In this document: one piece after another, positions 11,414 to 29,229 of the stretch
Numbering within the stretch: position 1 is the first letter of the stretch
How the letters are laid out: each line of letters opens with the position of its first letter
NCBI RefSeq assembly: GCF_963675975.1
Contig: NZ_OY780939.1
Coordinates: 1,054,001-1,118,000, forward strand
Direction of reading: 5' to 3'
From: Halarcobacter sp.
GTDB taxonomy: Bacteria > Campylobacterota > Campylobacteria > Campylobacterales > Arcobacteraceae
DNA length: 64,000 nt
The notes under the pieces: model-generated
What the model was told of the DNA's origin: nothing
Databases searched by the model: none
What the model saw: the letters and a program-made list of their open reading frames with translations, nothing else
Made by a program: the position numbers and the translations under genes

Positions 11414-11419
11414 TTTATT

Positions 11420-13222: not shown

Positions 13223-13239
13223 TAGTTTAAAACTACTAT
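13219..13239. terminator. Bidirectional terminator between dxs and the Tad operon
   Basis: ATAGTAGTTT (13219-13228) pairs with AAACTACTAT (13230-13239); in practice a seven-base or longer stem with a short AT loop. It lies between convergent stops (dxs 13222, secretin 13236). The flanks contain T/A runs but no long T tract. Confidence 0.55.
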
Positions 13240-14810
13240 TCATATCCTAGAATTTGATTAACCTTTTTTTGGTGTAACTCTTCTGGAGTTGGTTCTTTTA
13301 TTTTTGTAGATTTTTTTATTGTATCAACTTTATTTTTTTCTGTTTCTATTGAGCCTTTTTTATCTTCTTTAAGTCTTTTAAAAGACCGGTCGAAAATATT
13401 ATCTTCATCTAGATATTTAGATGTATCTAACATTCTTTTTTTAGTATTTTTATATCCATTAGCTTGATTATTCGTTTCTGGGTCAATTATTTCAGGAGTT
13501 AAGAAAAAAACTAATTCACTTTTTCCTTCTTTAAATACTTTACTTCTAAATAAAAATCCTAATACTGGAACATCTCCAAGTGCAGGTATTTTATCTAAGT
13601 CATATGAATTTTGAGTATTAATAAGTCCCCCTAAAACTATCGTAGAGTTATTTTTTGCAAGTACATTAGTTGTAACTTCATTTTCTAGGAAACTTGGTAT
13701 ATCATCTACAGTTTGTGTCCAATCAATTTTTGTATTACTTGTAGTGATTTCTAAGTCAACATAGTTATCATTCATTACGTTTTTTGCTTTTATATTTAAT
13801 TGAAGCCCATATTTGATCTTTTCTACATCAGTTGATGGTATACCTTCTGCAGTGGTAGTTTGAGTTTTAATTCTTATTGTTCCCCCTGCATGAAAAGATG
13901 CATCTTTGTTTTCTAATGTAATTAACGTAGTTTCATCTAAAATATTAGCTATCCCCTCTTGTGCTAAATATTGAAGTACAAGTGATGTGTTGAAAAATTT
14001 ACCTAAGTAGTTAGCTGCACCACTTAATCCTCCAGTTAAAGATACAGCATTTTGCATAATATTATCAATAGCAGTATCAACTCCTTCTATGTATTGATCT
14101 CTTACATCTGAGTCACTTACTCGACCTAAAGAGGATATTTTATCAATTTCTTTAACTTCATTATTAATTACTTCATAAAAAGTATATTCTTGACTGTTTT
14201 TTCTAGAAATAGCCCAGTTATTCTTTAAATTCAAACCTTTATCATTATCTATTTCAACTGCGAATAATTTTACACGAATCATTTTAGATGGAGTAGAAGT
14301 CTCAATCATATCAACTAATTTTTCATCAGTTTTAATACCAGCTTTTTTAAATGTATCAATAACTAAATCTTTTTCTCTATAATTTTTTACAAAACCTTTT
14401 AGTATGATTGTATCATTTGCTTGTTCAATAATTAGATCTGGATAAGTTGCTTTTACAATAGAGATAATTGTATCTAGATTTTGCATAATACTAAAATTTA
14501 TATGGATTGATTCACCATTTTCTAAAGTAACTATTGCACCTTCATTTCCAATATTTTTACCTAAAATTTTTAGTTTTGTTAGAGGCGACTCAAGACTATC
14601 TATAAAATCAGCACTTATATTTTCACTATTTGTCAATTGAATATTTTTAATTCTAGAATCAAATACTAAAGTTCTATAATTATTAAGTGGCAAATATATT
14701 GTACTATCATGAAAGTCTTTTTGATATATAACTTTATCATTAATATCATAGGCAAAACTAAAATTAGCTGTAAATAAAAATAAAAATAAAACCTTAAAAA
14801 AATACTTCAT
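13236..14810 (-). CDS. Tad/Flp pilus outer-membrane secretin (RcpA/CpaC type)
   Basis: A 524-residue secretin that should form the outer-membrane channel of the Tad pilus. It begins with a signal peptide (about residues 1-20, ending near NFSFAYD). An N-terminal pilus-assembly domain and a BON-like segment (about 125-190) follow. The secretin core ends with VLGGLINTQNSYDLDKIPALGD and VPVLGFLFRSKVF, then ELVFFLTPEII, the family C-terminal signature. A charged tail of about 65 residues (Lys/Glu-rich) extends past the secretin domain and is unusual. It is the last gene of the ten-gene minus-strand Tad operon; in most Tad loci the secretin comes early. No separate pilotin lipoprotein is seen nearby. 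Confidence 0.9.
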   Translation of the reverse strand: MKYFFKVLFLFLFTANFSFAYDINDKVIYQKDFHDSTIYLPLNNYRTLVFDSRIKNIQLTNSENISADFIDSLESPLTKLKILGKNIGNEGAIVTLENGESIHINFSIMQNLDTIISIVKATYPDLIIEQANDTIILKGFVKNYREKDLVIDTFKKAGIKTDEKLVDMIETSTPSKMIRVKLFAVEIDNDKGLNLKNNWAISRKNSQEYTFYEVINNEVKEIDKISSLGRVSDSDVRDQYIEGVDTAIDNIMQNAVSLTGGLSGAANYLGKFFNTSLVLQYLAQEGIANILDETTLITLENKDASFHAGGTIRIKTQTTTAEGIPSTDVEKIKYGLQLNIKAKNVMNDNYVDLEITTSNTKIDWTQTVDDIPSFLENEVTTNVLAKNNSTIVLGGLINTQNSYDLDKIPALGDVPVLGFLFRSKVFKEGKSELVFFLTPEIIDPETNNQANGYKNTKKRMLDTSKYLDEDNIFDRSFKRLKEDKKGSIETEKNKVDTIKKSTKIKEPTPEELHQKKVNQILGYE

Positions 14811-14820
14811 TATAAAACTC

Positions 14821-15258
14821 CTATTCTGAATATGTTATTGTTAGAGTACATGTTACAGTACCAGGACCACTTTCATTGAAGACAGCCCTTCTACTAACTA
14901 TTTGTTTATTGTAAAATGATACACCACTGTCTAATTGCGTAGTGAAGATAACTTGATAATTAGGTGGAACAATTGTATTGTCTATATTACAAACTACATT
15001 CCCTGAACTAATTTGTGCAATACCATTTACAGCTATATTATTTGCTCTTGTAACAAAAGTATTTATTGTAATTGCTCCAATGCCATTTGTTGATATTAAT
15101 CTGGCTCCATAATCGCTGATTGCATCCATATTATCTTTTACTCTTGCAATTTTTGCATAATTAAGAACAAAAAAGAATAAAGTAACAAAGCCTATAAACA
15201 TTACTATCCAAAGTAAAATATTTTCAATATAAGCTTTTTTCATATCATTTATTTTCAC
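14821..15258 (-). CDS. TadE-like minor pilin-like protein
   Basis: A 145-residue protein with one N-terminal hydrophobic helix (about residues 14-32, ILLWIVMFIGFVTLFFFVL) followed by a small exported domain with two or three cysteines. This is the layout of TadE/TadF pseudopilins, which sit in or under the Flp pilus. The frame begins with GTG at 15258, overlapping the stop of the preceding gene (GTGA). An ATG five codons later gives MKKAYIENIL, which resembles MKKAFIDQM of the large protein at 21434-23854, and is an alternative start. Sequence similarity to known TadE proteins is weak; position and topology carry the call. Confidence 0.65.
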   Translation of the reverse strand: MKINDMKKAYIENILLWIVMFIGFVTLFFFVLNYAKIARVKDNMDAISDYGARLISTNGIGAITINTFVTRANNIAVNGIAQISSGNVVCNIDNTIVPPNYQVIFTTQLDSGVSFYNKQIVSRRAVFNESGPGTVTCTLTITYSE

Positions 15259-16409
15259 TTTTCTAACTTTTTATATTCTGAAAAAGATATATCTCTTACA
15301 TCTTTTTTGTTTACATAAGTTCCATCACATAAGATATACCAATCAGGTTGTATCTTAGATTTACTAACATATGACATAATATAGTTTTTATGTATTTTGT
15401 TATTAATTTTTGCTCTAAATGATGGCTTAGTTCTTAGATAAATATTATGTGACAATCCAATTAATAATTTGTCAGTTTTTGAACATTCATCTTTATAACC
15501 TTCTGTAATTTTTGCTTTTTTAACTGTTTTTTTATCGTTATTATTTGCATAAGATATAGTGGCAGTTTTTGTTAAAGTTTTATCTTTAGGCGTATACCAT
15601 TTTATTGGATAAGTAGGTTTTCTATATGAAACTGGTTTAACAAGTTTTTTCTTTTGTACTATTTTTTTAGGTTTCTCTTCTTTTTTCTCTTCATCATCTT
15701 CTTCAATTTTCGATTTAACCATCCAAAGTTGTTTACCTTTATTGTAGTCATCTATTAATTTCAACAATACTTTTTCTTTTATGTCAAGAATTATTTCATC
15801 TGCTTTTACATTAATTATCTCTTCAACTTGTTGTTTTTTTACAAGTTTTTTAATTTTTTTCTTGTATAACGCTTTTTCAGATTCTACACCTTCACTTAAG
15901 AAACCTAATATTTTAATATTTTTTGCCACATATTGAACGGCATAATTATTAACATCTTTTCCTTTTTGATAAACGGATATTATTTTTATAATATCATTAG
16001 GTTCTAATGAAAAGTTTGGGTTCTCAAAAAGTTTCATTGACATATTATAACTGTTATATTTAAAATCTAAAGATTTTTCTTCCACAATTTCGATTTTATT
16101 TGATAGCTTTTCTTTTAAAAAGGCTTCATTTTGATAAATTGTTTCTTTTGCATATTTACCAAGTATTTCCTGTTTTAATAAGGGTTTTGTTAAAACGAAT
16201 TGTCTTGCAATAACAGTTTTTTTAAGATGGCTCTCATTTATAAGAGTATCTTTACTAATTGTGTTTTTTGCAACATATACATTTACTAATCTATTGTTAT
16301 CTTGTGCAACTTTTTCTTTCTCTTTATAAAAATAAAAAGATATTGCTATTGCTGTTAGTAATAAAGATACTAAAACTATAATAACTGCTAACTGTTTGTC
16401 AAACTTCAT
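15255..16409 (-). CDS. cpaB: Flp pilus assembly protein CpaB/RcpC with C-terminal SH3-like extension
   Basis: A 384-residue periplasmic protein anchored by one N-terminal helix (about residues 8-27). Residues 42-105 form a SAF domain (NVYVAKNTISKDTLINES, then NEAFLKEKL), the hallmark of CpaB/RcpC, which works with the secretin in Tad pilus assembly. A Lys/Glu-rich linker (about 180-290) follows, and then an SH3b-like module (about 312-375; NIYLRTKPSFRAKINNKI and the PDWYILCDGTYV stretch). Typical CpaB proteins are about 250-300 residues, so the C-terminal module is an addition that could bind peptidoglycan. It overlaps the TadE-like gene by four bases. Confidence 0.82.
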   Translation of the reverse strand: MKFDKQLAVIIVLVSLLLTAIAISFYFYKEKEKVAQDNNRLVNVYVAKNTISKDTLINESHLKKTVIARQFVLTKPLLKQEILGKYAKETIYQNEAFLKEKLSNKIEIVEEKSLDFKYNSYNMSMKLFENPNFSLEPNDIIKIISVYQKGKDVNNYAVQYVAKNIKILGFLSEGVESEKALYKKKIKKLVKKQQVEEIINVKADEIILDIKEKVLLKLIDDYNKGKQLWMVKSKIEEDDEEKKEEKPKKIVQKKKLVKPVSYRKPTYPIKWYTPKDKTLTKTATISYANNNDKKTVKKAKITEGYKDECSKTDKLLIGLSHNIYLRTKPSFRAKINNKIHKNYIMSYVSKSKIQPDWYILCDGTYVNKKDVRDISFSEYKKLEK

Positions 16410-16418
16410 ACTTTTCCT

Positions 16419-17276
16419 TTACATTCCTAAACCTAATTCTAATTGACCTGCCATCATTGGAAAAACAATAAAGGCTCCTAATGCAGGCAAAACAAAAACA
16501 AATAAAACCAAAATAAGATACATATTAAGAGTATTAACTTTACCTTTAATTTTATAAAATTTTTCTTGCCTCATCTCATCTGACTGAGTTGAAAATATAT
16601 TTTTAACTCCAATTCCTGCCTCTTCACTAAGAATTAAGAAATCTACAATTTTTCCTAAATCATCAGAATCAACTCTTTTTTTCAAATTTTCATAAGCTTT
16701 TTTTGTTGTATAATTAGTCATTTCATACTCTAATATGGCAATCTCTTTTAGTAATTCTTCATCTAATATCCCATGAGCTCTAGTGGATACTGTAAAAAAG
16801 GCATTTTTTAAACCTCCTCCTGCTTCTAATATTACATTAATTAAATCTAAAAATACACCCAAATCATTGTTTATTTTCTCTGCTCTTTCATTTTTAGATA
16901 TGTAAATATATATTTTACCACCAAAAAATATAGCTATTATAGCTATTAAAACACCTATTATAACACTAAGAAGTGTAGCTTTCATTATTACAGGTATTGC
17001 TATACCTAAAATTATTCCAATAAGTGCAATTACAAATTTTCCTTCATTGTATTCTTTTTTAGTTAAACCAGCTTGGATTAATTTAAAATAAAATTCTTTA
17101 TCATCTTTCTCATCGGCACTTTTATTTTTTACATCTTTTTGTTGATCAATAATAGCTAATGCATCAAGTTTTGATAATTGGACAATCTGTTTTTTTTGTC
17201 CTTGTGAATCATAAATATACCAAACAACAATAAATATTACTATTACAATTACAGGTAGGAAAAATATTAAATTCAT
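16419..17276 (-). CDS. tadC: Tad pilus inner-membrane platform protein TadC
   Basis: A 285-residue inner-membrane protein with a type II secretion F (T2SSF) domain. There is an N-terminal helix, a pair of helices around residues 80-125, and a final hydrophobic hairpin after the cytoplasmic four-helix domain (about 145-235). The signature LILSEEAGIGVKNIFSTQSDEMR matches TadC. With TadB it forms the platform on which the TadA ATPase acts. Its ATG shares the TAATG junction with the TadB stop (one-base overlap), so the pair is coupled. Confidence 0.88.
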   Translation of the reverse strand: MNLIFFLPVIVIVIFIVVWYIYDSQGQKKQIVQLSKLDALAIIDQQKDVKNKSADEKDDKEFYFKLIQAGLTKKEYNEGKFVIALIGIILGIAIPVIMKATLLSVIIGVLIAIIAIFFGGKIYIYISKNERAEKINNDLGVFLDLINVILEAGGGLKNAFFTVSTRAHGILDEELLKEIAILEYEMTNYTTKKAYENLKKRVDSDDLGKIVDFLILSEEAGIGVKNIFSTQSDEMRQEKFYKIKGKVNTLNMYLILVLFVFVLPALGAFIVFPMMAGQLELGLGM

Positions 17277-18205
17277 TATTTAACCTTTGTTAATAAATTA
17301 TTTACAAATAAACCAAAGGCAACCCAAACAATTATAAAAAACATTTGAATTTGACCCTCACTGCTTCCAAAAAAGTGTCTATCTAAAACACCATTTAAAG
17401 AACTGTCCATCATTTGATAAGTAAATACTACAAGGCCAATTATCATGTAACTTCCAATCTTTATCTCTTTAGTTGAAGATGTGATTTCTTGCTTTATTTC
17501 CCCTTGATCATGGAGTGTTTTTCTTAGTTTTTCTAAGGTATTTGAAAATTTACCCCCAGATTGCCTACCAATCGAGATTGTTAAGTAGAAAATTCTTAAT
17601 TCTTTTGACTCAACTAACTTAAACATTTTTTCAAAAGCTTTGTTCTCACCAATAATATCTTTTTCCATAAGATATATATTAAAAGTATCTTTTGTAAATT
17701 TTGATTTTGAAGTCATAACAGCTTTTGTCAAGGACTGTTCAAATCCAACTCCACTTTTCATCATACTAGTAACTTTATCTATAATTACTTTTAGTCCATA
17801 ATTAAACTCTTCTTCTCTATTTGAAATTATTTTTTTCAAAACTAAAAGTGGGAAAAAAGAGAAAACAACCCAGCTTATTGCAAATACTACTGGGTTTGTA
17901 ATAGCAAAATTTACAAATGCAGCAGCAAGGAATCCAAATCCTACAGAAATTAATATAAAAATAGGTTCAGCTAAAGGTGATAAAAAGCCTGCATATGAAA
18001 GTTTTTTACCTAACCAATTTCTATCTTTATTAAAAAACCGACTTCTTTTTTTTGCTTCTGCTAATATCTCATTTTGATCATTTGATAATTTTTTAATAAT
18101 TCTATTTTGTTTATTAAAATTTATTGAATAGTTATATATTAAAATAATACTAGTAATTGTTAAGATAGGTATAATTACTGATAAAATAAGAAATTGAATG
18201 TCCAT
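17276..18205 (-). CDS. tadB: Tad pilus inner-membrane platform protein TadB
   Basis: A 309-residue T2SSF-domain membrane protein. An N-terminal helix is followed by a cytoplasmic stretch, two helices (about 80-125), the cytoplasmic domain with SMMKSGVGFEQSLTKAV and ISIGRQSGGKFSNTLEKL, and two C-terminal helices. The S-G-G-x-x-x-x-x-L-E motif is typical of TadB. The gene lies three bases after tadA and overlaps tadC by one base, as in most Tad operons. Role: inner-membrane platform for pilus polymerisation. Confidence 0.9.
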   Translation of the reverse strand: MDIQFLILSVIIPILTITSIILIYNYSINFNKQNRIIKKLSNDQNEILAEAKKRSRFFNKDRNWLGKKLSYAGFLSPLAEPIFILISVGFGFLAAAFVNFAITNPVVFAISWVVFSFFPLLVLKKIISNREEEFNYGLKVIIDKVTSMMKSGVGFEQSLTKAVMTSKSKFTKDTFNIYLMEKDIIGENKAFEKMFKLVESKELRIFYLTISIGRQSGGKFSNTLEKLRKTLHDQGEIKQEITSSTKEIKIGSYMIIGLVVFTYQMMDSSLNGVLDRHFFGSSEGQIQMFFIIVWVAFGLFVNNLLTKVK

Positions 18206-18208
18206 ATA

Positions 18209-19825
18209 CTAATAATCCTTATCTATTTTTTGAAAATGTGGCCATTTATGGAATAATTTTGGATCATTTCTTAAGAATATATCTAAAAATTCATTTTTCC
18301 ATCCACACATTTTATTTGGTAAATCTTTTTCTAATTCTTCAATTAACATTGATTTTGGCATCTCAAACTCTTTGTCAAAAATAGATAAATCAATATCTAC
18401 ACCAAACATATTCATTTGAGAAACTGTTCTACTAGGTGTTGATACAACTTCAAAAGTTCCTCTAGTTTTAGTCATATCACTAGTATCTCTTTTGAATTCA
18501 AATATATTATTCAAAGATACTACTGCACCGTCTTCAATTCTTTTTTCTACTTCTGAAACAGTAATAACTTTTCTGGTACCATCGGGAAATCTAACTAGTT
18601 GAATAATAATATCTATTGCAGAAACAATTTGTGCTCTAATAAAATTGATATTTGCACTAGGTCTGGCTTCTAGATACATATTCTCAATTCTTACTAATGC
18701 TTCTTTTGTATTATCGGCGTGAACAGTAGTCATAGAACCAGGATGTCCTGTATTCATAGCATTTAACATTACAACAATTTCCCCACCTCTACACTCACCA
18801 ACTATAATCCTTCTTGGCGATGATCTTAGAGCTGATCTTAATAAAAAGTCAAGAGTAATAGCACCTTTGCCTTCTTCATTTGCCATTCTTGCTTCATATT
18901 GTCTAATTGTATTACATGGCATTTGAGGTTGCATCTCTTTAGTATCTTCAATTACCATTAATTGCTCATTAGGATCAATAAATCTTGTCATAGCATTTAA
19001 AAATGTTGTTTTACCACTTGATGTACCACCTGATACAATCATATTACACTTACCTTTTGCAATTTTTAGTAAAAAATAAGCCATTTTATAATCCATTTGC
19101 CCAGAATCAATGAGAGATTCTAGTAATAATGGTAAGTAATTAAATTTTCTTATTGTTACACAACTTCCATCATTTGCTGCAATAGGAGGTATTTGTACTT
19201 CTACCCTTGAACCATCCTTAAGTTTACTTGACATAATAGGGTGTGCTTCGTCAATTTTTCTATTATTTTCTGCAAGCATTTTATCTATTACTTTTCTTAA
19301 TTCTTCTTCACTTCTAAAGGTGAAAGGTGTTCTAACTGTTTTACCTTTATAGATAATATCAATATAATCTTTTGTATTAACTATAACGTCATTTAAACCA
19401 TCTTTTGCAATCTCAAAAATACTTGTTATTGGTCCATAGCCCACTATATTGTTTATAATAAATTCTTTAATCTCTTCTAGAATATCTTTTGGTAATTTAC
19501 TCGCTTGTTTAAAAGATAAAATAAATTCAGGTAAAACCTCTTCTAAAGAATCCCTAACTATCTTTTTATCAGATTTTAAATTTATCATAAATGTATCATT
19601 TATCTCATATGCAATTTCTAATAATTTTTCATTATGATAAATTTTTGGAAAATCAAGTTCATGATTTTCAGCTTTTTTTCTTTTAACTTTTTCAATTTTT
19701 TCTTCAAAGTCATCTTCAAAAGTAATTTCATCTTCATTTTTTTCAACTTCATCATATGCAAAAGATTGTTTTTTAATCTCTTTTTTTTGTTCTTCTTCTG
19801 TAATAAGATTTCTTAAATTTCTCAA
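18209..19825 (-). CDS. tadA: Tad pilus assembly ATPase TadA (CpaF family)
   Basis: A 538-residue secretion ATPase that powers Flp pilus extension. The Walker A motif is VSGGTSSGKTTFLNAM near residue 268-283. The Asp box EDTKEMQP, the R-S-S-P-R-R-I-I-V-G-E-C-R-G Walker B region and HADNTKEAL (His box) follow in CpaF order. The N-terminal 60 residues are highly acidic and lysine-rich and probably disordered. The C-terminus is about 80 residues longer than the ATPase core. It lies three bases from the flanking genes tadZ and tadB, so the operon is tightly packed. Confidence 0.94.
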   Translation of the reverse strand: MRNLRNLITEEEQKKEIKKQSFAYDEVEKNEDEITFEDDFEEKIEKVKRKKAENHELDFPKIYHNEKLLEIAYEINDTFMINLKSDKKIVRDSLEEVLPEFILSFKQASKLPKDILEEIKEFIINNIVGYGPITSIFEIAKDGLNDVIVNTKDYIDIIYKGKTVRTPFTFRSEEELRKVIDKMLAENNRKIDEAHPIMSSKLKDGSRVEVQIPPIAANDGSCVTIRKFNYLPLLLESLIDSGQMDYKMAYFLLKIAKGKCNMIVSGGTSSGKTTFLNAMTRFIDPNEQLMVIEDTKEMQPQMPCNTIRQYEARMANEEGKGAITLDFLLRSALRSSPRRIIVGECRGGEIVVMLNAMNTGHPGSMTTVHADNTKEALVRIENMYLEARPSANINFIRAQIVSAIDIIIQLVRFPDGTRKVITVSEVEKRIEDGAVVSLNNIFEFKRDTSDMTKTRGTFEVVSTPSRTVSQMNMFGVDIDLSIFDKEFEMPKSMLIEELEKDLPNKMCGWKNEFLDIFLRNDPKLFHKWPHFQKIDKDY

Positions 19826-19827
19826 TT

Positions 19828-21414
19828 TTATTCCTTATTTAAAAAAGAAAAGATATTTTTTTTATCTTTTGTTTTAGAAGAGGTTTTACTTATAAATTCT
19901 TTTGTTTTAAGAATATCTTCCAAAGTTTTAACAAATGGTGATTCTTGAGATATTTGTGAAGCTAGTTCACAATAATTCCAACATTTACCTAATGTTTGAT
20001 AGTCGTTTGGAATTTTTATATAACTTAATTTTTCTTCTTTACTACTAGTGTTCATAATGGAATCAAAGTCTGAAGATGAAATCTCATTTAATGAGTTAAC
20101 TCTATTTACTATGAAGTTAACTTTATCTTTTAAGCCAGCTCTTTTCATAAGTGAATAAAAAGTTTTAAGTTTCGATACATGTGGAAGAGTCATCTCTGTT
20201 AATATCCAAATTTCATTTACTAAATCATAAATACTACTCTTAAGTGATGAGGCATCTGAAATACCTGTATCTATAATAATATAATTGAAATGTTCACTAG
20301 CTTTTAAAATATAATCTAGCATTTTTTCTATAAATATTTCTTTTTCAAGTATATCCCTATCAATATGTTTTTGTATTCCATTTATACTGTAAAAATTTTC
20401 TCTAATTTTTACTAATCCTAGTTCTAAATTCTTTTTAATGTTAAAATCATTCATATTTACTAAGTCTATTATAGAATGATTTGGTATAGGATTTTGTGAT
20501 AAAAATAGATTACTAATTGCTTTAGTTGTTGAAAGATCTATATATAATACGTTTTTTGATGGGTTGTTTCTTGCTATAATATCAGCAGTATTCATTGATA
20601 TTGTTGTTGCTCCAATCCCACCAGAAACTCCACTTACTGCAATAATTTTATTATCATATTTATTTTTATTTAATAATTTATATTTTGTATCTAGTATTAT
20701 ATTTTTTATATTTTCAGGAGAAAACTCATCAATCGACACATAGTTTTCTATGTTTAACTTTCCACAGCTTAATGAAAGATTATGATTATTTGGACCAATT
20801 ACGATGATAAATTCATTGAATTTTCTTAAAAGCTCACTATCGTCATTTATTAATTCTCCATTTTGTATGGTATAAATTATAATATTTTTAGAGTTTTTCA
20901 TATGTAAAACATCAGAAATTTTAGTAATATCATAAATGACATTTATCTCTGCATTTAATAAAATATCCAAATTTGTTTGTAATTTATTTGCAAATTTTGT
21001 AGTATTCTTATCTGTAACAATAAAAATATTTAAAGGGGTGTTTTGTGATAATAAATCTTTTTCAATCTCAAATATTTTTCTTAATGCAATTCTAGATTTT
21101 TTTAGTAACTCTTTTAATACTTGTCTATACCAAATTTTTCTATTAAATGTAATTTTACCAAAGATAATATCACCATCTTTTAATACTATAGAGTATTTAT
21201 TATTTATAAAATTAATATCATCTTCTATCACTTCATATCCATTTACAGTAAAACCATAAATAAAATTATTGTATTTAAAATCATATTTTAAAAATGTAAG
21301 TTTTTGAATATTTGAAATTAATACAAATAATTGTAATATCTCAATTACATTCTCTTTTCTAATATCTAAAGCACCTTGAATATTTGAATATTCTTGATAT
21401 GTTTTATAATCCAT
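19828..21414 (-). CDS. tadZ: TadZ/CpaE-like ParA-family pilus localisation protein
   Basis: A 528-residue protein. Residues 1-150 are an unassigned N-terminal region, about 150-240 look like an atypical receiver domain, and 250-500 form a MinD/ParA-like ATPase domain (AVSGVSGGIGATTISMNTAD). The usual Walker A lysine (G-K-T) is replaced by alanine (G-A-T-T), as in many CpaE/TadZ proteins, which bind nucleotide or mark a cell pole without fast hydrolysis. TGISDASSLKSSIYD and NFIVNRVNS are the later ParA-like elements. TadZ places the pilus machine at its site. The N-terminal extension is longer than in typical CpaE (about 400-520 residues overall). Confidence 0.82.
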   Translation of the reverse strand: MDYKTYQEYSNIQGALDIRKENVIEILQLFVLISNIQKLTFLKYDFKYNNFIYGFTVNGYEVIEDDINFINNKYSIVLKDGDIIFGKITFNRKIWYRQVLKELLKKSRIALRKIFEIEKDLLSQNTPLNIFIVTDKNTTKFANKLQTNLDILLNAEINVIYDITKISDVLHMKNSKNIIIYTIQNGELINDDSELLRKFNEFIIVIGPNNHNLSLSCGKLNIENYVSIDEFSPENIKNIILDTKYKLLNKNKYDNKIIAVSGVSGGIGATTISMNTADIIARNNPSKNVLYIDLSTTKAISNLFLSQNPIPNHSIIDLVNMNDFNIKKNLELGLVKIRENFYSINGIQKHIDRDILEKEIFIEKMLDYILKASEHFNYIIIDTGISDASSLKSSIYDLVNEIWILTEMTLPHVSKLKTFYSLMKRAGLKDKVNFIVNRVNSLNEISSSDFDSIMNTSSKEEKLSYIKIPNDYQTLGKCWNYCELASQISQESPFVKTLEDILKTKEFISKTSSKTKDKKNIFSFLNKE

Positions 21415-21433: not shown

Positions 21434-23854
21434 CTATTGCAATTCAACTATAAAGTTATCTATATATAATACCTCATTTGTACTTGAAACATAGATTGAT
21501 AATGATACACCAATAATACCATCACTATCAGTACTTCCTTCTAATGTATATGATTTAGAACCATAATTAATAGAACCACTATAATTACCAAATGATTGCC
21601 TATCAATAACAAGGTCATGGTTTAAGTAAACTGTAAAATAATCTCTACTACTACCCCAATTTTCCCAGCCACCTACATAGTTTAAGTCAAATTTAACAGT
21701 TACTCTTTTATTTGCAAAACTTGGGCCAAAATTAAAAAATCTTCCTGTTGTTTGCCAATCTTTTGTTTTTGCAGCTTGTATTTTTAGTTTACCTTCGTTT
21801 GAATCATACGAATCTTTTATCCATGAACCAAATCTTGTATCAAATTGTTCTTCATCTCTATCAAAAGTTAAATTAAAAATTCGTAAATCAACTTCATTTA
21901 TGATTTTTACATTATAGCTGCTTGTAATACTCTCTTTCCCATCACTTACAGTTACATTTATTTTTAAGTTATTACCAACATAACCATTAGGAATTTTTAT
22001 ATTTGAAGTTATAAGTCCATACTGATTTATATTAAAATATGAACTAACATTAGTTGTTCCATTTAGATAAACAGTAATTGAATAATTTAAATTATCTCCG
22101 TCTGCATCACTAAAGTAAGGACTTACATCAAAACTATAATATGTATCTTCTTTTACTGTACCATCAGGAATTTTACTTGATGTTGGTTTTGAATTAGTAT
22201 CTGTAACTTCAATACTAAACGCCGGTAAAGAAGCTGATAATTGACCATCACTAACTGAAATAACTATATTCTCGTATAATCCTAAATCAGAACTTCTAGG
22301 TATTCCTACAAGTTCTCCTGTATTTTGATTAAAATTAAGCCAAGATGGTTTGTTTGAAATACTGAATGTTAAAATATCATTATCTGGATCTGAAGCATTA
22401 GGAATAAAACTATAATTTTTATCTATATTGATTGTAGGAGTAGGTGCTCCATAAATAGTAGGTGCATCATTTACTTCAGTGATAGTTATATCACAATAAC
22501 CAAAGCCAATAGCTCCACTATTATCAGTTGCAGTGAATGTTATTCTATCTGTACCAAAAAAGTTTAATATTGGAGTATAAGTTAATGTACCATCACTATT
22601 TACCACAACTGTACCATTTTGAGAAGATGCAGAAGTACTAAAAATAGAACCATCAGTGTCAATTGCATTCCATCCTATGGCAGAAGTTTGATTATCTTCA
22701 TTTATATTTATTGGACAACCTGTAATTGTTACCACAGGATTTTGATTATTTCCACAATTTAATAAAACTACTCCACCTTGACCAATACTAAAATTATTTA
22801 ATCGATTAGGTACTGCAAGTCTTGTACTGTCTAATACCAAATCATTGAAGTCTTGGTCTCCTCCTCCATCTAAATCCTCCATTGAGTATCTATACTCATT
22901 ATTTGGATCATTTGTATAGTCTATATCATTAGTAGAATCTTCATCATTGTTTAAATTATCTGCATATTCTATAAATTGTTGATATTTGTCTTTTGCATCA
23001 CCAGATAAGTTACTTATAAAATCATTATATTGATTCCAAATACTTTTTGGAATAATTTGAAAGTGGGCATAATTCCCATCGCCATTTAAATTTTCATGTT
23101 CAAAATATATGTGGGTATTATCTACAGTTTTGTTATTTAGTGTTACACTTGGATTACTTGTTGCTCCCATGCAGTGACTTTGATTTAATGTAATTTGATC
23201 CGAAATAGATGGATAATCATTATATCCATTTTTAAAGGTATTATACCCATCTGATATAATAAAAGTAAATGTAGGAGGAGTTGTAAATTGAGTACCTATT
23301 GGATCGCCCGCATTAGGCCTTTTAGAATCTTCTAAAATAAGTTGGGCATTTTGTACGCAACCGTTATTATCTAAAGTATAAGTTCCAACCATATTTCTAT
23401 AACTTGCATCTTCGCCTCCAAAAGACAAGTTTACATTTAGCGGAGTTGTCAATTGTTCATTAGCAGAGAAGGGGCCAATAGTAAATGAGTCTTTATCCAT
23501 AAATCTATACCAAAATGTATTATAATTATATGCTCCAAATGTAGTTCGGATAGTATCTGGTTGTGAGTCTCCGGTTGTATCTAACCAAGTATAATTTACT
23601 AAACCATTATTAAGTAGATAATTACCTAATTTTGTTTGTCTTAAAATATTATTATTCACATTTTGTGCTGTACACATATCCATTTGTAGAGCATAATGTT
23701 CTGCAATTGAGTGAGATGATGTTCTAGCTAGAGATTGTAAATCTTCCATTTCATTTCTTATTAGAGTTTCATCACTAATAGTTGCAACGAAAAATACAAT
23801 TCCCATGAACAAAAGAAAGGCAAAAAACATTTGATCAATAAAAGCTTTTTTCAT
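21434..23854 (-). CDS. Large TadG-like surface protein: pilin-like anchor, DUF4114, Ig/cadherin-like repeats, C-terminal beta domain
   Basis: An 806-residue protein inside the Tad operon. One N-terminal hydrophobic helix (about 9-25) follows MKKAFID, like the start of the TadE-like protein. An extracellular region with cysteines comes next. At 326-342 EDLDGGGDQDFNDLVLD is the DUF4114 signature, a likely calcium-binding turn. Residues about 370-460 form a cadherin/VCBS-like repeat ending in VNDAPT. Residues 470-551 look like a He_PIG immunoglobulin-like domain (KPSWLNFNQNTGELVGIP), then another Ig-like repeat (560-655). A C-terminal beta-rich domain (about 660-806) resembles carbohydrate-binding jelly rolls. 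The layout suggests a pilus-tip adhesin or TadG analogue. Function is inferred. Confidence 0.75.
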   Translation of the reverse strand: MKKAFIDQMFFAFLLFMGIVFFVATISDETLIRNEMEDLQSLARTSSHSIAEHYALQMDMCTAQNVNNNILRQTKLGNYLLNNGLVNYTWLDTTGDSQPDTIRTTFGAYNYNTFWYRFMDKDSFTIGPFSANEQLTTPLNVNLSFGGEDASYRNMVGTYTLDNNGCVQNAQLILEDSKRPNAGDPIGTQFTTPPTFTFIISDGYNTFKNGYNDYPSISDQITLNQSHCMGATSNPSVTLNNKTVDNTHIYFEHENLNGDGNYAHFQIIPKSIWNQYNDFISNLSGDAKDKYQQFIEYADNLNNDEDSTNDIDYTNDPNNEYRYSMEDLDGGGDQDFNDLVLDSTRLAVPNRLNNFSIGQGGVVLLNCGNNQNPVVTITGCPININEDNQTSAIGWNAIDTDGSIFSTSASSQNGTVVVNSDGTLTYTPILNFFGTDRITFTATDNSGAIGFGYCDITITEVNDAPTIYGAPTPTINIDKNYSFIPNASDPDNDILTFSISNKPSWLNFNQNTGELVGIPRSSDLGLYENIVISVSDGQLSASLPAFSIEVTDTNSKPTSSKIPDGTVKEDTYYSFDVSPYFSDADGDNLNYSITVYLNGTTNVSSYFNINQYGLITSNIKIPNGYVGNNLKINVTVSDGKESITSSYNVKIINEVDLRIFNLTFDRDEEQFDTRFGSWIKDSYDSNEGKLKIQAAKTKDWQTTGRFFNFGPSFANKRVTVKFDLNYVGGWENWGSSRDYFTVYLNHDLVIDRQSFGNYSGSINYGSKSYTLEGSTDSDGIIGVSLSIYVSSTNEVLYIDNFIVELQ

Positions 23855-23866
23855 CCTGAACCCTTT

Positions 23867-24307
23867 TTATTTAATTATAGTATAAATATCTATAGATTCG
23901 TTTATTTTAACTAATATTACAGATAAAAAAATAGCTGGAGCCATTGGTGCTACTCTTCTTTTTTTTACCTTCTGATAATAGATTAAAAATAATCCTTGAA
24001 CTATACCTGTAACTATTAAAAATATAGGTATAGAGATTGGTTGTAAATACAAAGTTATTACTAACATATATTTAATATCACCACCGCCTAAAATCATTTT
24101 AGGAAACAAAAGAATAAGTATAACAAAAAAAACTAAAAATATTATTAAAATAATAAAAGAATAAATTATTTGTTTATTTTCAAAAAAACCAAAAATTATT
24201 AGAAAAATTGAGAGTGCAAAAATCATTAGATTGGGAATTTTATATCTAGTACAATCTATATAAGATATAAATAATGAAAAAATAAAAAAAGAAATATGAA
24301 ATATCAT
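23867..24307 (-). CDS. tadV: Prepilin peptidase (TadV/CpaA family)
   Basis: A 146-residue aspartic prepilin peptidase with about four to five hydrophobic helices. The two catalytic aspartates can be seen: YIDCTRYKIPN near residue 18 and LGGGDIKYMLV (G-x-G-D motif) near residue 73-83. It lacks the N-terminal methylase domain of PilD and has the short CpaA/TadV form. It should cut the Flp pilin and minor pilins in the inner membrane. No Shine-Dalgarno sequence precedes the ATG (24307-24305), and a strong hairpin (24316-24344) lies just upstream, so expression is probably far below that of the pilin. Confidence 0.88.
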   Translation of the reverse strand: MIFHISFFIFSLFISYIDCTRYKIPNLMIFALSIFLIIFGFFENKQIIYSFIILIIFLVFFVILILLFPKMILGGGDIKYMLVITLYLQPISIPIFLIVTGIVQGLFLIYYQKVKKRRVAPMAPAIFLSVILVKINESIDIYTIIK

Positions 24308-24362: not shown

Positions 24363-24572
24363 TTAGTTGCTATTAGTTTTTTTACTTGCATCTTTAATTG
24401 CATTATCAATAGCACTATTTGCACTTTTTTGTACTGAATTAGTTTGTTTTTGAACCCAAGAATTAAGTCCTACAACAGCACCAACACCAACAATAACTAA
24501 AAGAAGTGTTACAAGAATTTTATCCATAGCACCTTTTTCTGATTTTAATCTTCTTTTTAAGAATTCTAACAT
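24363..24572 (-). CDS. flp: Flp-type major pilin (divergent)
   Basis: A 69-residue protein: a short basic leader (MLEFLKRRLKSEKG), a hydrophobic helix (AMDKILVTLLLVIVGVGAVVGL), and a polar Ser/Asn/Lys-rich tail. Size, position as first gene of the Tad operon and topology fit an Flp pilin. Cleavage after Gly14 is plausible. The glutamate usually found at +5 of the mature pilin is absent (residues after the glycine are AMDKI), so it is a divergent Flp. The ribosome binding site AAGGAG is strong, in contrast to the next gene. Its promoter must lie in 24573-24690, where the minus strand has TATGATAAAAT-like sequence. Confidence 0.8.
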   Translation of the reverse strand: MLEFLKRRLKSEKGAMDKILVTLLLVIVGVGAVVGLNSWVQKQTNSVQKSANSAIDNAIKDASKKTNSN

Positions 24573-24722: not shown

Positions 24723-26177
24723 GTGACTAATCAAATAAAAACTAAATATATAATTTATTTATTTTCAGCTTTTGTATTTGCGTATAGTATTAATGTGAGT
24801 ATGCTTGATGATGGGTTGAGACATATATCTTTTGCTTATAATAGAGAATTAATGAAAAGTTGGGGAGATATTTTTCCTCATTCTTTATTTACATCTTATG
24901 ATCCTTGGTTTATGTGGCATAATTTATTAAGTATCTTAATAGATATTTTTACATATTCTAATGTACATATTGTAGTTAATACTTTATCTTTATTTTTTCT
25001 TTTAGTACTAATACACAAACATTTTGAAAATGAATCAAAATACGATTATGCGTCAGTTACATATATTATAGTTTTTTCTATTTTGTATTTGAGCTATTTT
25101 AGGTATGTATTAGTTAGACCTGATTTATTGTCAGGTTTGTATATTCTTTATATGCTAACTTTAAAAAATAAATTCTATTTAACATTGTTTGTTACAATAA
25201 TATATGGTCCTTTCTATTATTTATTCTTTGTTTATACAGGAATTATAGGTTTAACCTATATAATACAAAAAGATTGGAAATCTTTTTTAGGAACATTTTT
25301 AGGTTCTTCTATTGTACTTTTTATATATCTATATATAGATAAAGTAGAGTATTTAAATACAATATTAAATATTTTAAATGATCAATCATTAAGAATGGGT
25401 TTAGAAGTTTCAGAAGGTGCCCCTTTATTTAACATATTTAAAAATATAAACTATTATATTCTTTTGCCTATTTTCTTATTTTCATGTACAATAATTATAT
25501 ACTTAAAATATGACTATTTTTCTAAAAATAAAGTTGCAACATTTCTTTTAATATCATCATTATTATGGACTAATCAAGTTAGATATTATGTTTTATTTTT
25601 ACCATTAATTTTAGTTTTTGTAGTAACATTTTTTTTAAACTTAAATAAAAAAATATTTTTTTATAGGGTAAGAAAAATACTATATCTAGTAAAAAAATAT
25701 ATTGCTTATTCAAAAAAGGCTTTTATTTTTTATGTAATAGCAATACCTTATAGTATATTTATTTTTTCTTATGCATTTAGTTTAGATTCAAGAGATAAAG
25801 AATTAGATAGTGCAAAATTTTTTAAAAATGAAGAATATAGTAATAAAACTATACTATTTAATAGTCTGAACATAGATATATATAAAGCTTTATATTTTAA
25901 TCCAACAATAAAAACTATACCTAGTTGTAGTATTGGCTGGTTTGAGGATAATAAAGAGATGAAAGATATTTACATAAGAATGCAAAAAGATGATGGTGTA
26001 TCAGAAAAAGAATTAAAAAAACTTATTGATTTTGTAGGAGCTGATATATATATACATAGACTAAGAAATGATAAGCAAATACTAAATTTTAAGAAACTTG
26101 AAAATTTGGGAATAACACCTATAAATATATATAAAAATAGAATAATATTTAATATAAAGAGAAAAATAAATGAATAA
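24723..26177 (+). CDS. Polytopic membrane protein, probable GT-C type glycosyltransferase
   Basis: A 484-residue protein with about nine to ten predicted membrane helices and a C-terminal soluble domain of roughly 120 residues. The first loop after helix 1 carries acidic residues (SMLDDGLRH), the feature expected for GT-C glycosyltransferases that use polyprenyl-phosphate sugars in the periplasm. I do not recognise a named family. The neighbours, a DPM1-like GT2 enzyme and a GtrA-like flippase, form the other two parts of the known three-gene glucosylation systems (gtrA/gtrB plus a specific transferase), which supports the role. The start is GTG at 24723 with a good ribosome binding site. It overlaps the next gene by eight bases. 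Acceptor unknown. Confidence 0.65.
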   Translation: MTNQIKTKYIIYLFSAFVFAYSINVSMLDDGLRHISFAYNRELMKSWGDIFPHSLFTSYDPWFMWHNLLSILIDIFTYSNVHIVVNTLSLFFLLVLIHKHFENESKYDYASVTYIIVFSILYLSYFRYVLVRPDLLSGLYILYMLTLKNKFYLTLFVTIIYGPFYYLFFVYTGIIGLTYIIQKDWKSFLGTFLGSSIVLFIYLYIDKVEYLNTILNILNDQSLRMGLEVSEGAPLFNIFKNINYYILLPIFLFSCTIIIYLKYDYFSKNKVATFLLISSLLWTNQVRYYVLFLPLILVFVVTFFLNLNKKIFFYRVRKILYLVKKYIAYSKKAFIFYVIAIPYSIFIFSYAFSLDSRDKELDSAKFFKNEEYSNKTILFNSLNIDIYKALYFNPTIKTIPSCSIGWFEDNKEMKDIYIRMQKDDGVSEKELKKLIDFVGADIYIHRLRNDKQILNFKKLENLGITPINIYKNRIIFNIKRKINE

Positions 26178-27105
26178 TAAAATAGCAATAATTTTGCCAG
26201 CATATAATGAAGAGCTTACTATTGAGAAAACTATATTAAGTTTTAATAAATATTCTCCTAATAGTAAGATTGTAGTAGTTGATAACAATTCAAGTGACAA
26301 AACCTATGAAATTGCAAAAGAAACTTTTGAAAAAAATCAAATAGATGGCATTTTACTTTTAGAAAAAAGACAAGGTAAAGGTAATGCAATAAGAAAGGCT
26401 TTTAAAGAAATTGATGCTGATATTTATGTAATGAGTGATGCAGATTTAACTTATCCTGCAAATGAAATTAATAAAATTATTGATCCCATATTATTTGAAA
26501 ATATAGATATGTGTGTAGGAGATAGAATAAGTAAAGGTGATTACGAAAAAGAAAATAAAAGATTCTTACATAACTTTGGAAATAAACTTGTAAAAAATTT
26601 AGTAAATAAGCTTTTTAAATCAGATATTAATGACATAATGAGTGGATATAGAGCTTTTAGTAAAAAATTTGTTAAACATTATCCGATATTAGTAGAGGGA
26701 TTTGAACTTGAAACAGATATGACTTTACATGCACTAGATAAAAGATTTAATATAAAAGAAGTACCAATAACTTATAAAGATAGGCCAGAAGGTAGTTTTT
26801 CTAAATTAAATACTTTTAATGATGGTTTTAAAGTATTATTTACTATTTTTAAAATTTTTAGATATTTTAAGCCTTTTGCTTTTTTTAGCCTATTATCTTC
26901 TATATTTGTGTTTTTTTCTATTATTAGTTCTATTCCAGTTTTTGATGACTGGTTTAGATATAAATATATTTTTCATGTTCCTTTGGCAATATTGTCGACT
27001 GGATTAGGGCTTATTAGTATGATACTTTTTGCGGTAGCTTTAATACTCGATGCAATATCTGATCAAAATAGAAGAGAATTTGAACAAAGAATATTAAAAG
27101 AATGA
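26170..27105 (+). CDS. GT2 polyprenyl-phosphate glycosyltransferase (DPM1/GtrB-like)
   Basis: A 311-residue enzyme with a GT-A catalytic domain (about 1-230) and two C-terminal membrane helices (about 235-300). IAIILPAYNEELTIEKTI opens the fold, VVDNNSSDKTYEIA is the nucleotide-binding element, and MSDADLTYP contains the D-x-D metal motif. DIMSGYRAFSK is the family acceptor-site motif. Such enzymes move a sugar from a nucleotide donor to a polyprenyl phosphate on the cytoplasmic face. It overlaps its two neighbours by eight and four bases, so the three genes form one translational unit. The sugar cannot be read from the sequence. Confidence 0.88.
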   Translation: MNNKIAIILPAYNEELTIEKTILSFNKYSPNSKIVVVDNNSSDKTYEIAKETFEKNQIDGILLLEKRQGKGNAIRKAFKEIDADIYVMSDADLTYPANEINKIIDPILFENIDMCVGDRISKGDYEKENKRFLHNFGNKLVKNLVNKLFKSDINDIMSGYRAFSKKFVKHYPILVEGFELETDMTLHALDKRFNIKEVPITYKDRPEGSFSKLNTFNDGFKVLFTIFKIFRYFKPFAFFSLLSSIFVFFSIISSIPVFDDWFRYKYIFHVPLAILSTGLGLISMILFAVALILDAISDQNRREFEQRILKE

Positions 27106-27479
27106 AACAATTTATAAAATTTGGGATAGTTGGAAGTATAGGATTTTGTATTGATGCCATTATATTATTATTATGTGTTAATATATTTGAAATAGAAGTA
27201 TATATTGCTAGAGTATTATCTTTTTCATTAGCAGTATTCACAACTTGGCTTTTAAATAGAGTATTTACATTCCAAAAAAGTAAATATGGAAAAAAAAGAG
27301 AATATTTTTATTATTTTACTATTCAATCAATAGGAGCAATTTTAAATTATATAATTTTTATTATGTTGGTAAAAAATAATATATTTTTTGAACAATATTT
27401 AGTTTTTGCATTAGCAGTGGCATCTTTTATTGCAATGTTTTTTAATTTTATTCTTCTTCAAAAAAAAGTTTTTATTTAG
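27102..27479 (+). CDS. GtrA-like membrane flippase
   Basis: A 125-residue protein with four hydrophobic helices, starting KFGIVGSIGFCIDAIILLL and containing FTTWLLNRVFTFQKSK, the N-R-x-F-T-F motif typical of GtrA proteins. The family is thought to move polyprenyl-phosphate sugars across the inner membrane. Start ATGA overlaps the stop of the GT2 gene. Its stop (27479) overlaps by eight bases with the stop of the convergent LtaS-like gene, with no terminator between them. Confidence 0.88.
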   Translation: MKQFIKFGIVGSIGFCIDAIILLLCVNIFEIEVYIARVLSFSLAVFTTWLLNRVFTFQKSKYGKKREYFYYFTIQSIGAILNYIIFIMLVKNNIFFEQYLVFALAVASFIAMFFNFILLQKKVFI

Positions 27480-29229
27480 AGTCAATAAATTGATATTTTG
27501 GATTTAGTCTTTTTATTCTAGTAAAATTTACTTTTTCAATAACTTCAGGATACTTAGAATTATTCAAGATATGAGTTTCATCACCATAAAACTTAATATT
27601 AAACTCATCCTTTTCAGTAAAAATTGATACAATTCCTCTTTTATCACCTCTTCTATGAACTATATATTTGGGTGTAACTATTTTTTCTGATAAAAAATCA
27701 CCTTTCCATTTTGATGTCGAACTAATTTTTGAAACTAAATTTTTAATTGAATTATATATATCTACTTGTTGAAAGTTTTCTTTTACAGAAAAATTTTTAT
27801 TTTTATAAGCTACAACCATTGGCACTACACTTGAAGATTTTAGTTCCCCAAATCTATTTAATTCTTCATTTCTTATTGGTATAACTGGATGATGATCACC
27901 TACAATAATTAATAAGCCATCATCAAAAAAACTATTTTGTTTTAATTTTTTATAAAATATACCTATTTGTTTGTCTATATATTTTATTGTTTCTTCTTCT
28001 GAAGATGAATTATTTTCTGGATTTCTAAATGGAGCATGTGAAGAAACAGTTTTTATAAATAAATAGTATTGTTTATTTTGCTTTTTTACACGGTCTATTA
28101 CCCTGTCATAAAGAAATTCATCTGCTGCTGCATTGAAATGAAATCTTTGTTTATTAGTATAATAGCTATTTTCACTTCCTTCAATATATTCAAATCCATT
28201 AGATTTTGCCCATTTTCCAGTATTTGAAAAATGTAAATCTGATGAGGTTATAAATTCAGTATGGTAATTAAATCTTTTTAATATGTTAGGTAAAGATTTT
28301 TCCATATTATAAAAACCAGTAAAAGATACTCCTCCCCCATTTGTATATGCTTTAGGTGCATAAAGTGGAAATTCTCCAGTATTGATTGAAACTTCAGCAT
28401 CTTCAGTTACAAATCCATTTGCAAAAAAATTTAAAAAGCTTATATTGTCTTTTGCTATTTTATCCAGATTAGGAGTCCAGTTTTTGATTTCAGAGAAATA
28501 TTGACTTTGATATGATGCTAAAGATTCAACCATAAGTACAATTATATTTGGATATGAAGGGTTTGAATTTTTATATATTAAATTTTCTGGATCTTGTATA
28601 TTTTTAATAAATTCTTTTGTGTATTCTTTTGTTTGATCATTAATCTCTATATTATATTCAATAAAGTTTTTATTTAACCATGAATGGATATATTTGCCAT
28701 CTTTTGCAAAAGAGTATAAAAAAAGAAATAGTAAAATAGGAATAATAAACTTTAAGTATGTTTTTTTACTTTTTATTTTATAGCTATTAAATATAAAAAT
28801 ACTACTAAATAAAACAATAAAAAAAATCAAAATCATAGTATAAAAATTAATTGTATATATTTGTAATAAAAAATTTATTGCATAGTTGTAATATTTTAAA
28901 ATATCATTAATTGTTAGATGGTTATAAAAACCAAGTAAAATATAAATGTCAATTAAATATAAAAAAGTAATATTTAAAGCAATAAATCGTAATAGTATTG
29001 AAAAAAATTTAGGGACAATTTCTAAAAATGAGATAAAAATTAGTAATAAAATCAAAAAATATATAAATGAGTCATGAAATATAGATTGAAAAAATCTATA
29101 ATAAAAAGTACTATCTTGTTGAATTAGTATTGTGTTTATATAATAAGACTTTATAAGTATTATAAGTATAAAAATTTCTATATAAATTGAAAATAGAATA
29201 GTTTTTATCTTAAAATTAGTCAATATCAC
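27472..29229 (-). CDS. LtaS-like phosphoglycerol transferase / sulfatase-fold membrane enzyme (copy 2)
   Basis: A 585-residue protein with about five N-terminal membrane helices (to about residue 175) and a periplasmic sulfatase/alkaline-phosphatase domain. Metal and catalytic residues fit the LtaS group: Glu235 in VLMVESLASYQ, the likely nucleophile Thr275 in NGFVTEDAE, a histidine in KTVSSHAPFRNP, and Asp-His in VGDHHPVIP. LtaS-family enzymes transfer glycerol phosphate to lipids, glucans or proteins. It overlaps the upstream paralogue by 14 bases, so both are translated from one message. In a Gram-negative cell the acceptor could be periplasmic glucan, lipid A/LOS or a surface protein; the sequence does not decide. 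Confidence 0.82.
   Translation of the reverse strand: MILTNFKIKTILFSIYIEIFILIILIKSYYINTILIQQDSTFYYRFFQSIFHDSFIYFLILLLIFISFLEIVPKFFSILLRFIALNITFLYLIDIYILLGFYNHLTINDILKYYNYAINFLLQIYTINFYTMILIFFIVLFSSIFIFNSYKIKSKKTYLKFIIPILLFLFLYSFAKDGKYIHSWLNKNFIEYNIEINDQTKEYTKEFIKNIQDPENLIYKNSNPSYPNIIVLMVESLASYQSQYFSEIKNWTPNLDKIAKDNISFLNFFANGFVTEDAEVSINTGEFPLYAPKAYTNGGGVSFTGFYNMEKSLPNILKRFNYHTEFITSSDLHFSNTGKWAKSNGFEYIEGSENSYYTNKQRFHFNAAADEFLYDRVIDRVKKQNKQYYLFIKTVSSHAPFRNPENNSSSEEETIKYIDKQIGIFYKKLKQNSFFDDGLLIIVGDHHPVIPIRNEELNRFGELKSSSVVPMVVAYKNKNFSVKENFQQVDIYNSIKNLVSKISSTSKWKGDFLSEKIVTPKYIVHRRGDKRGIVSIFTEKDEFNIKFYGDETHILNNSKYPEVIEKVNFTRIKRLNPKYQFIDSK

Follow-up and report, generated by a model that had tools for sequence, protein, structure and literature searches.

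What kind of protein is encoded between tadV and tadZ of a Tad pilus operon in Halarcobacter? The question is raised by a stretch of 64,000 nucleotides of Halarcobacter sp. (NCBI RefSeq assembly GCF_963675975.1, contig NZ_OY780939.1, positions 1,054,001 to 1,118,000), referred to here as the window. At 21434-23854 on the minus strand, an open reading frame (ORF) was identified which starts with ATG, is free of internal stops and codes for 806 residues. This tip gene is located in a compact ten-gene Tad operon on the minus strand with the order flp, tadV, TIP, tadZ, tadA, tadB, tadC, an rcpC/cpaB-like gene, a tadE-like gene and the rcpA secretin gene, which spans from flp (24572-24363) to rcpA (14810-13236) with intergenic gaps of at most 55 bp and two overlapping gene pairs. 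An earlier, sequence-only reading of this DNA had described a third gene of the operon coding for 806 residues. The length was confirmed and the strand added, and the tip gene is in the third position since the 69-residue Flp-like pilin at 24363-24572, which escapes the Pfam Flp model, belongs to the operon and has to be counted. In our judgement, the product is quite likely a Tad minor pilin which caps the filament and carries a binding head.

That the tip protein belongs to the Tad machine was judged from its distribution; the tip searches covered the genomes of the order, and plasmids. A profile of the N-terminal part of 15 relatives (alignment A1) matched 30 of 104 genomes of the family; in three of them (G003, G013 and G028) the match was partial, comprising only profile positions 47-106, and was dropped as chance-level. 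The remaining 27 genomes are exactly the 27 in which this TadA was identified (E<=1e-60), giving 27/27 TadA-positive genomes against 0/77 TadA-negative ones, or 3/77 when the weak partial matches are counted. Both tadV and tadZ were seen in 25 family clusters, and the tip gene occupies the interval between the two in 24; G101 and G103, which are split across contigs, were excluded from this count. For G067, the slot holds a second Flp gene besides the tip gene. The exception is G036 (loci L135 and L084), where tadV and tadZ are separated by 18 bp, the slot is empty, and the tip gene was located outside the cluster, past its rcpA end, at a distance of 4.9 kb from rcpA and of 13 kb from the vacant slot. 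The position between tadV and tadZ was also identified at L075, L076, L077 and L120, which are outside the family or unmatched to it. Among 398 genomes of the order, 18 were matched by the profile; outside the family, the tip gene is present beside tadZ in G309, G168, G119 and G284, and a 660-residue version in G317 adjoins a TadE-like gene. A match in G226 was dropped as chance, being a methyltransferase by Pfam. No match was found for residues 1-366 in the plasmids, nor for the whole tip protein as a query in the genome contigs; the TadA query returned 24 named loci.

The tip protein is composed of the following parts, given with their positions in the window and the evidence for each (a slash within a motif marks the putative cleavage site):

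23684..23854, minus strand: residues 1-57, KKA/FID leader and long pilin alpha-1 helix (AlphaFold2 helix 2-57; homology to the TadE-like protein)
23453..23683, minus strand: residues 58-134, pilin domain, small alpha/beta portion common to the aligned tips (alignment A1, n=15; models)
22769..23452, minus strand: residues 135-362, DUF4114 head module (Pfam, models)
22841..22858, minus strand: residues 333-338, DQDFND acidic signature, putative Ca2+ site (motif, alignment A2)
21893..22747, minus strand: residues 370-654, three repeats of cadherin/Ig-like type, carrying DTDGS, DPDND and DADGD (Pfam, fold match, motifs)
21437..21892, minus strand: residues 655-806, C-terminal jelly roll like that of a carbohydrate-binding module (CBM) (fold match; no Pfam match)

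For the N-terminal part, a profile-profile comparison of A1 with 16 TadE-like proteins (A6) gave a probability of 95.3% and an E value of 2.4e-8 over 54 columns, which bears out the resemblance to the TadE-like protein noticed in the first residues by the sequence-only reading. Weak matches of the A1 profile (E 2e-4 to 8e-4) were also obtained for a 148-residue frame of G041 and for the TadE-like proteins encoded in G042, G051 and G005. With a helix 1 homologous to that of the TadE-like protein, the tip protein is, to judge by its sequence, a minor pilin of this Tad system.

A site of the form x-[GAS]/x-x-[DE], with an acid at +3, is present in 33/33 Flp proteins, a sample gathered by similarity to this Flp and thus not unbiased, in 21/21 TadE-like proteins and in 32 of 40 tips, which are distinct sequences including close relatives, with the truncated tip L119 excluded. 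The acid is displaced here, since it is found at +5 in the published prepilin peptidase consensus G/A-X4-F/E (excerpts of PMC12607857) and as a glutamate in TadE and TadF of G503, the genes of which were read by eye as canonical. From the conserved site, we infer cleavage of the tip protein by TadV at KKA/FID.

The structure of the whole protein was predicted with AlphaFold2 on an alignment of 10 sequences (pLDDT, the predicted local distance difference test, 79). The prediction, for which the sequence-only reading had called, recovered a single helix at 2-57, as expected for the pilin-like N-terminus proposed there. Beyond the helix, the model shows a small domain of alpha/beta type up to 134 and a beta-rich module at 139-347; then come the repeats and, at 659-805, a jelly roll. 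A second model of residues 1-366 from 16 sequences agrees with the first (pLDDT 78; predicted template modelling score, pTM, 0.60).

The cadherin/He_PIG-like repeats named in the sequence-only reading were identified above the Pfam cut-off, with 60.3 bits for Big_9, 53.9 for Cadherin_4, 41.7 for He_PIG and 40.2 for Cadherin_5. Their DTDGS, DPDND and DADGD motifs are presumably the Ca2+ motifs of bacterial cadherin-like domains. Fold matches were scored by VIA-align on Foldseek candidates from the PDB. For residues 369-553, the match is to the cadherin-like modules of SraP, with a Z score of 11.3 (root mean square deviation, rmsd, 7.2 A over 173 residues); one module by itself gives Z 10.4 (rmsd 1.9, 86 residues), and the repeats also match cadherins by fold.

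For residues 657-806, nothing was found in Pfam at E<=10. By fold, this part matches the C-terminal part of an arabinanase (8ic1_A) with Z 12.6 (rmsd 2.5 A, 129 residues), and the CBM27 structure 1pmh with Z 10.7 (rmsd 3.6, 144 residues); a MAM domain (8a28) ties with the arabinanase (Z 12.3, rmsd 3.3, 135 residues). A C-terminal beta domain like carbohydrate-binding folds, as claimed from the sequence, is thereby recovered, with the MAM domain as a tied match. The predicted CBM-like jelly-roll fold is one shared with carbohydrate-active proteins; a fold alone is no proof of function.

In the module between the pilin part and the repeats, the acidic signature expected for DUF4114 was located as DQDFND at 333-338, and the acids 326, 327, 333, 335 and 338 are invariant across the 10 sequences of alignment A2. 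The signature D-x-D-[FYW]-x-D is present in 17/40 tips, compared to 3.4% of shuffled sequences, and the Pfam DUF4114 model matches 11/40 tips at E<=1. A C2-type fold was considered for this module and rejected, the best match, to copine, being too weak for use at Z 4.3. Other C2-type matches of residues 135-362 are to the DHR-1 domain of DOCK8 (Z 3.2) and to synaptotagmin (2.1). A Ca2+ site of C2 type might be read from these matches, but they are within noise.

The following mechanism is proposed. Helix 1 would insert the tip protein into the inner membrane, and TadV would cut after the alanine of KKA/FID and leave the aspartate at +3, as in Flp (KG/AMD) and in the TadE-like protein (KA/YIE). 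The tip protein and the TadE-like protein would form a priming tip complex, to which Flp subunits would be added by TadA, TadB and TadC, and the tip protein would exit through the RcpA secretin ahead of the filament. Outside the cell, the DUF4114 module and a cadherin-like stalk stiffened by Ca2+ would present the C-terminal carbohydrate-binding domain, and the retracting pilus would pull the cell onto a glycan-bearing surface. As modelled, the head is modular, most likely binds glycans and is probably Ca2+-dependent. Of the tip adhesin with a minor-pilin anchor which the sequence-only reading had put forward, the anchor, the modules and the link with the Tad system, seen in an identical set of 27 among 104 genomes, stand on sequence and structure prediction, and the position at the tip is what we infer from the model.

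Comparable proteins were described for other pili. In Myxococcus, the Kil/Tad pilus carries KilLMN tip complexes of TadE/F/G-like minor pilins, and the excerpts of PMC12075869 show the same combination: the minor pilin at the Tad tip is large and modular, it has companion pilins, and a genome may hold several alternative tips. However, KilLMN is encoded in four three-gene tip clusters, whereas here the tip gene and the TadE-like gene lie apart within one operon, in which no third minor pilin was seen. The head of DUF4114, cadherin-like and CBM-like parts also differs from KilLMN, and the tip protein is likened to KilN by description only. Caulobacter CpaL and TadG were likewise proposed as modular minor pilins of the Tad tip (excerpts of PMC12075869 and PMC12607857). 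Like the tip protein, they are large, resemble minor pilins, are linked to the Tad system and carry a binding module at the C-terminus (excerpts of PMC12607857), but CpaL has a vWA head and TadG a PF13400-type N-terminus, neither of which was found in this tip; a vWA head was rejected here, as it gave no match in the tip protein. The large C-terminal head on a minor pilin is a design analogy to TadG, not a membership, and by this analogy the tip protein would work like TadG, KilN and CpaL.

For the type IVa pilus of Myxococcus, the excerpts of PMC9109919 describe PilY1.1, in which DUF4114 is present at the tip with a proposed Ca2+ pocket and a proposed role in exopolysaccharide binding, and in which the exchange D498A in DUF4114 abolishes colony motility with pili remaining; PilY1 with DUF4114 is also treated in PMC13190605, likewise available as excerpts. 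PilY1 stands as a protein of its own and has a propeller at the C-terminus, whereas in the tip protein DUF4114 directly continues a Tad pilin. Membership in PilY1 was rejected, since no propeller is among the 7 Pfam matches at E<=1 and the C-terminus is a jelly roll. In SraP, the cadherin-like modules form a Ca2+-stiffened stem which holds a lectin outward (excerpts of PMC4047093). The fold match at Z 11.3 likens the repeats of the tip protein to these modules; SraP is a surface serine-rich repeat glycoprotein of Staphylococcus with a legume-type lectin and not a pilin.

When the 40 tips were compared, the pilin part (residues 1 to about 134) was found to be common to them and the region after it variable. 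Repeats and the C-terminal domain are added in 5/40, and 11/40 are 347-355 residues long and without the DUF4114 signature; no Pfam name was found for the heads of these eleven. Three head classes occur at the slot within genus g1 and two each in genera g19 and g20. Between the proteins of the window and those of G065, the identity is 84% for TadA, 68% for the secretin, 54% for the TadE-like protein and 39-52% for the tip regions. The C-terminal domain recurs in a 1188-residue frame of G035 and, with Ig-like repeats, in a 3059-residue ORF of G054, and tip-type repeats recur in many large ORFs.

It is unlikely, in our view, that the protein is instead an assembly primer or brake of the TadG/CpaL type with a head which senses contact or tension rather than a specific glycan. 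Such a role is suggested by the deletion of CpaL in Caulobacter, which lowers piliation and raises holdfast production, and by the proposal of CpaL as a mechanosensor (excerpts of PMC12607857). It is also suggested by the tip in all 27 Tad-positive genomes of the family: heads without the DUF4114 signature are among them, and the core function of the tip must therefore not need the head modules. Against a primer or brake, the head modules are typical of adhesins and carbohydrate-binding proteins, and the tips vary far more than TadA or TadZ, as ligand binding predicts, although the TadE-like protein and the secretin vary much too.

A number of results weigh against a processed tip pilin with a DUF4114 head, the evidence for which consists entirely of sequence and predicted structure. 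The whole-tip model has a pTM of 0.37, and residues 1-366 (pilin and DUF4114) gave no clear PDB match, the best reaching Z 4.3 (rmsd 4.7, 118 residues), with pilin structures absent among the matches shown. DUF4114 (PF13448) stays under the Pfam cut-off of 27, with 17.3 bits in the whole protein and 20.4 bits with the module alone. The site A/F-I-D departs from G/A-X4-F/E, so that processing by TadV is not assured, and 8/40 tips are without the acid at +3; asparagine is present in L010 and L011, glycine in L120, and no acid in L076, L077, L078, L079 and L128, which belong to other lineages. PF13400 was unmatched in this genome at E<=0.001 and, at E<=1, in the tip protein, and hhalign gave a probability of 0.3 for the tip against the N-terminal part of the single TadG used, that of G503. 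The TadE-like proteins gave probabilities of 0.2 and 1.8 with the canonical TadE and TadF of G503 and no match to TadE in Pfam, for which reason they are named after their place in the operon and their helix 1 only. On the PF13400 and hhalign results, TadG membership was rejected on sequence; the hhalign test is weak, because the TadE-like proteins likewise fail against canonical TadE and TadF.

For the DUF4114 domain claimed in the sequence-only reading, the signature and a homologue stand on one side and the tip's own score on the other: the homologous module of a 366-residue relative (L006) passes the cut-off with 30.5 bits, and since the five acids are also invariant in A2, the assignment is taken as safe at the level of sequence. 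Outside the family, the locus L134 of G503, a genome of another family of the order, has the look of a canonical tad locus: its TadG matches PF13400 over the cut-off (25 bits), tadD, E and F were read by eye, and a 1379-residue ORF follows at 10347-14486. Given this locus, two very different Tad types exist in Campylobacterales.

The departure of the signal from the consensus and the 8/40 relatives without the acid would also fit an adhesin anchored in the envelope, or a periplasmic Tad part, held by an uncut helix in the inner membrane outside the filament. We regard this as very improbable, since the same variant site is present in all 33 Flp and 21 TadE-like proteins, homology ties helix 1 to the TadE-like protein, and a 285-residue cadherin-like stalk with a CBM-like end would be of little use at the inner membrane. 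A passenger gene for a cargo adhesin unrelated to pilus function, as might be read from heads which differ among close relatives and from copies standing alone elsewhere, is scarcely credible for a tip found in 27/27 TadA genomes against 0/77 (3/77 with weak matches) and found nearby where the slot is empty.

How a minor pilin at the Tad tip might acquire different binding heads was approached with gene trees. In the TadZ-A-B-C tree, the head classes are scattered, with the short-headed G059, G060 and G067 nested among long-headed genomes. In single-gene trees of nine genomes, the five long-headed genomes form one clade in the trees of the tip DUF4114 region (100), RcpA (100) and the TadE-like protein (97), also in those of TadC (87) and RcpC (76), and weakly in that of the tip pilin part (49). 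This clade is absent from the TadA, TadZ, TadB and TadV trees. In the approximately unbiased (AU) test of the long-head clade, a group named after inspection of the concatenated tree, TadA rejects it (p 0.0138) and TadZ does not (p 0.245). We read this as a joint movement of the tip, the TadE-like protein and the secretin against at least part of the motor, a claim which hangs on TadA alone because TadC and RcpC show the split and TadZ does not reject it. The comparison with relatives suggests an exchange of the gripping end, with the pilus motor staying much the same.

Spare tip genes were identified in fetched stretches without tad genes, singly in G035, G041 and G042 and as a tandem pair in G061. 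For the spare tips of G042 and G041 (L087 4848-5846 and L088 5387-6370), ATT and ATA are present at the usual place of the ATG, and they may be decayed, or use rare starts, because no standard start codon is present there. In G101 (L085 and L106), two tandem tips precede tadZ, and a different contig holds a third, which adjoins tadV and flp. Head exchange at the slot and spare tip genes had not been noticed in the sequence-only reading. As a tentative extension, which we hold to be possible and somewhat short of probable, the interval between tadV and tadZ would be a dedicated tip locus with a conserved pilin stub, an exchangeable head and, in some genomes, spare tips elsewhere; heads would be traded as part of a matched surface module, together with their TadE-like protein and secretin, the motor being inherited separately, strains would thereby re-target one machine, and the acid at +3 would give the assembly rule of type IV pilins a second register.

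The sequence-only reading had known of no description of the design for this phylum. No such tip was found in the literature for Campylobacterota, Arcobacter or Halarcobacter, nor DUF4114 with Tad, among the papers listed, in which subscription journals were thinly covered; a Tad pilus is reported without detail for Osedax-associated Sulfurospirillum in the excerpts of PMC10470745. Modular Tad tips and DUF4114 pilus tips were described elsewhere, and the idea is less new than the sequence-only reading supposed. DUF4114, which was discussed for type IVa pilus tips, is now joined to the Tad system. Related bacteria carry different heads at this locus, all built on one pilin stub, and this natural series makes the role of Tad tip minor pilins directly testable by head exchange. 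The observations suggest that the tip, its TadE-like partner and the secretin must match, and the acid at +3 in three pilin classes gives a sharp prediction on pilin processing and packing. If the extension is true, strains would re-target the same grappling machine to new surfaces by swapping heads.

The ten genes of the operon are as follows:

24363..24572, minus strand: Flp-type major pilin, 69 residues, KG/AMDK site (similar pilins adjoin tadV in relatives)
23867..24307, minus strand: TadV prepilin peptidase (Peptidase_A24), 146 residues, GGGD motif (Pfam)
21434..23854, minus strand: TIP, 806-residue modular minor pilin and candidate tip adhesin (ORF, Pfam, AlphaFold2)
19828..21414, minus strand: TadZ-like ATPase, 528 residues (AAA_31)
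18209..19825, minus strand: TadA motor ATPase, 538 residues (T2SSE 1.1e-44)
17276..18205, minus strand: TadB-like inner-membrane protein (T2SSF)
16419..17276, minus strand: TadC-like inner-membrane protein (T2SSF)
15255..16409, minus strand: CpaB/RcpC-like protein (SAF and CpaB matches, both under the cut-off)
14821..15258, minus strand: TadE-like minor pilin, 145 residues, KA/YIEN site (named by position and helix 1)
13236..14810, minus strand: RcpA/CpaC-type secretin, 524 residues (Secretin 2.7e-39)

Two further T2SSE-type ATPase matches are present in the genome outside the window. A scan for promoters and terminators gave no higher number of sites than in shuffles.

Adjoining the tad operon and divergent from flp, a polytopic membrane protein with an N-terminal DDG-x-RH motif is encoded at 24723-26177 on the plus strand, for which Pfam gives no match. 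Next to it in the window come genes for a family 2 glycosyltransferase (26170-27105) and for a small membrane protein, and the same polytopic neighbour of the operon was identified in L005, L016 and L106, one gene more distant in L106. The polytopic protein is possibly a pilus-glycosylating enzyme. Further on, two tandem membrane proteins, similar by eye, are encoded on the minus strand at 27472-29229 and 29216-30997; the first, with a Pfam Sulfatase match of 7e-25, is by this match LtaS/sulfatase-like.

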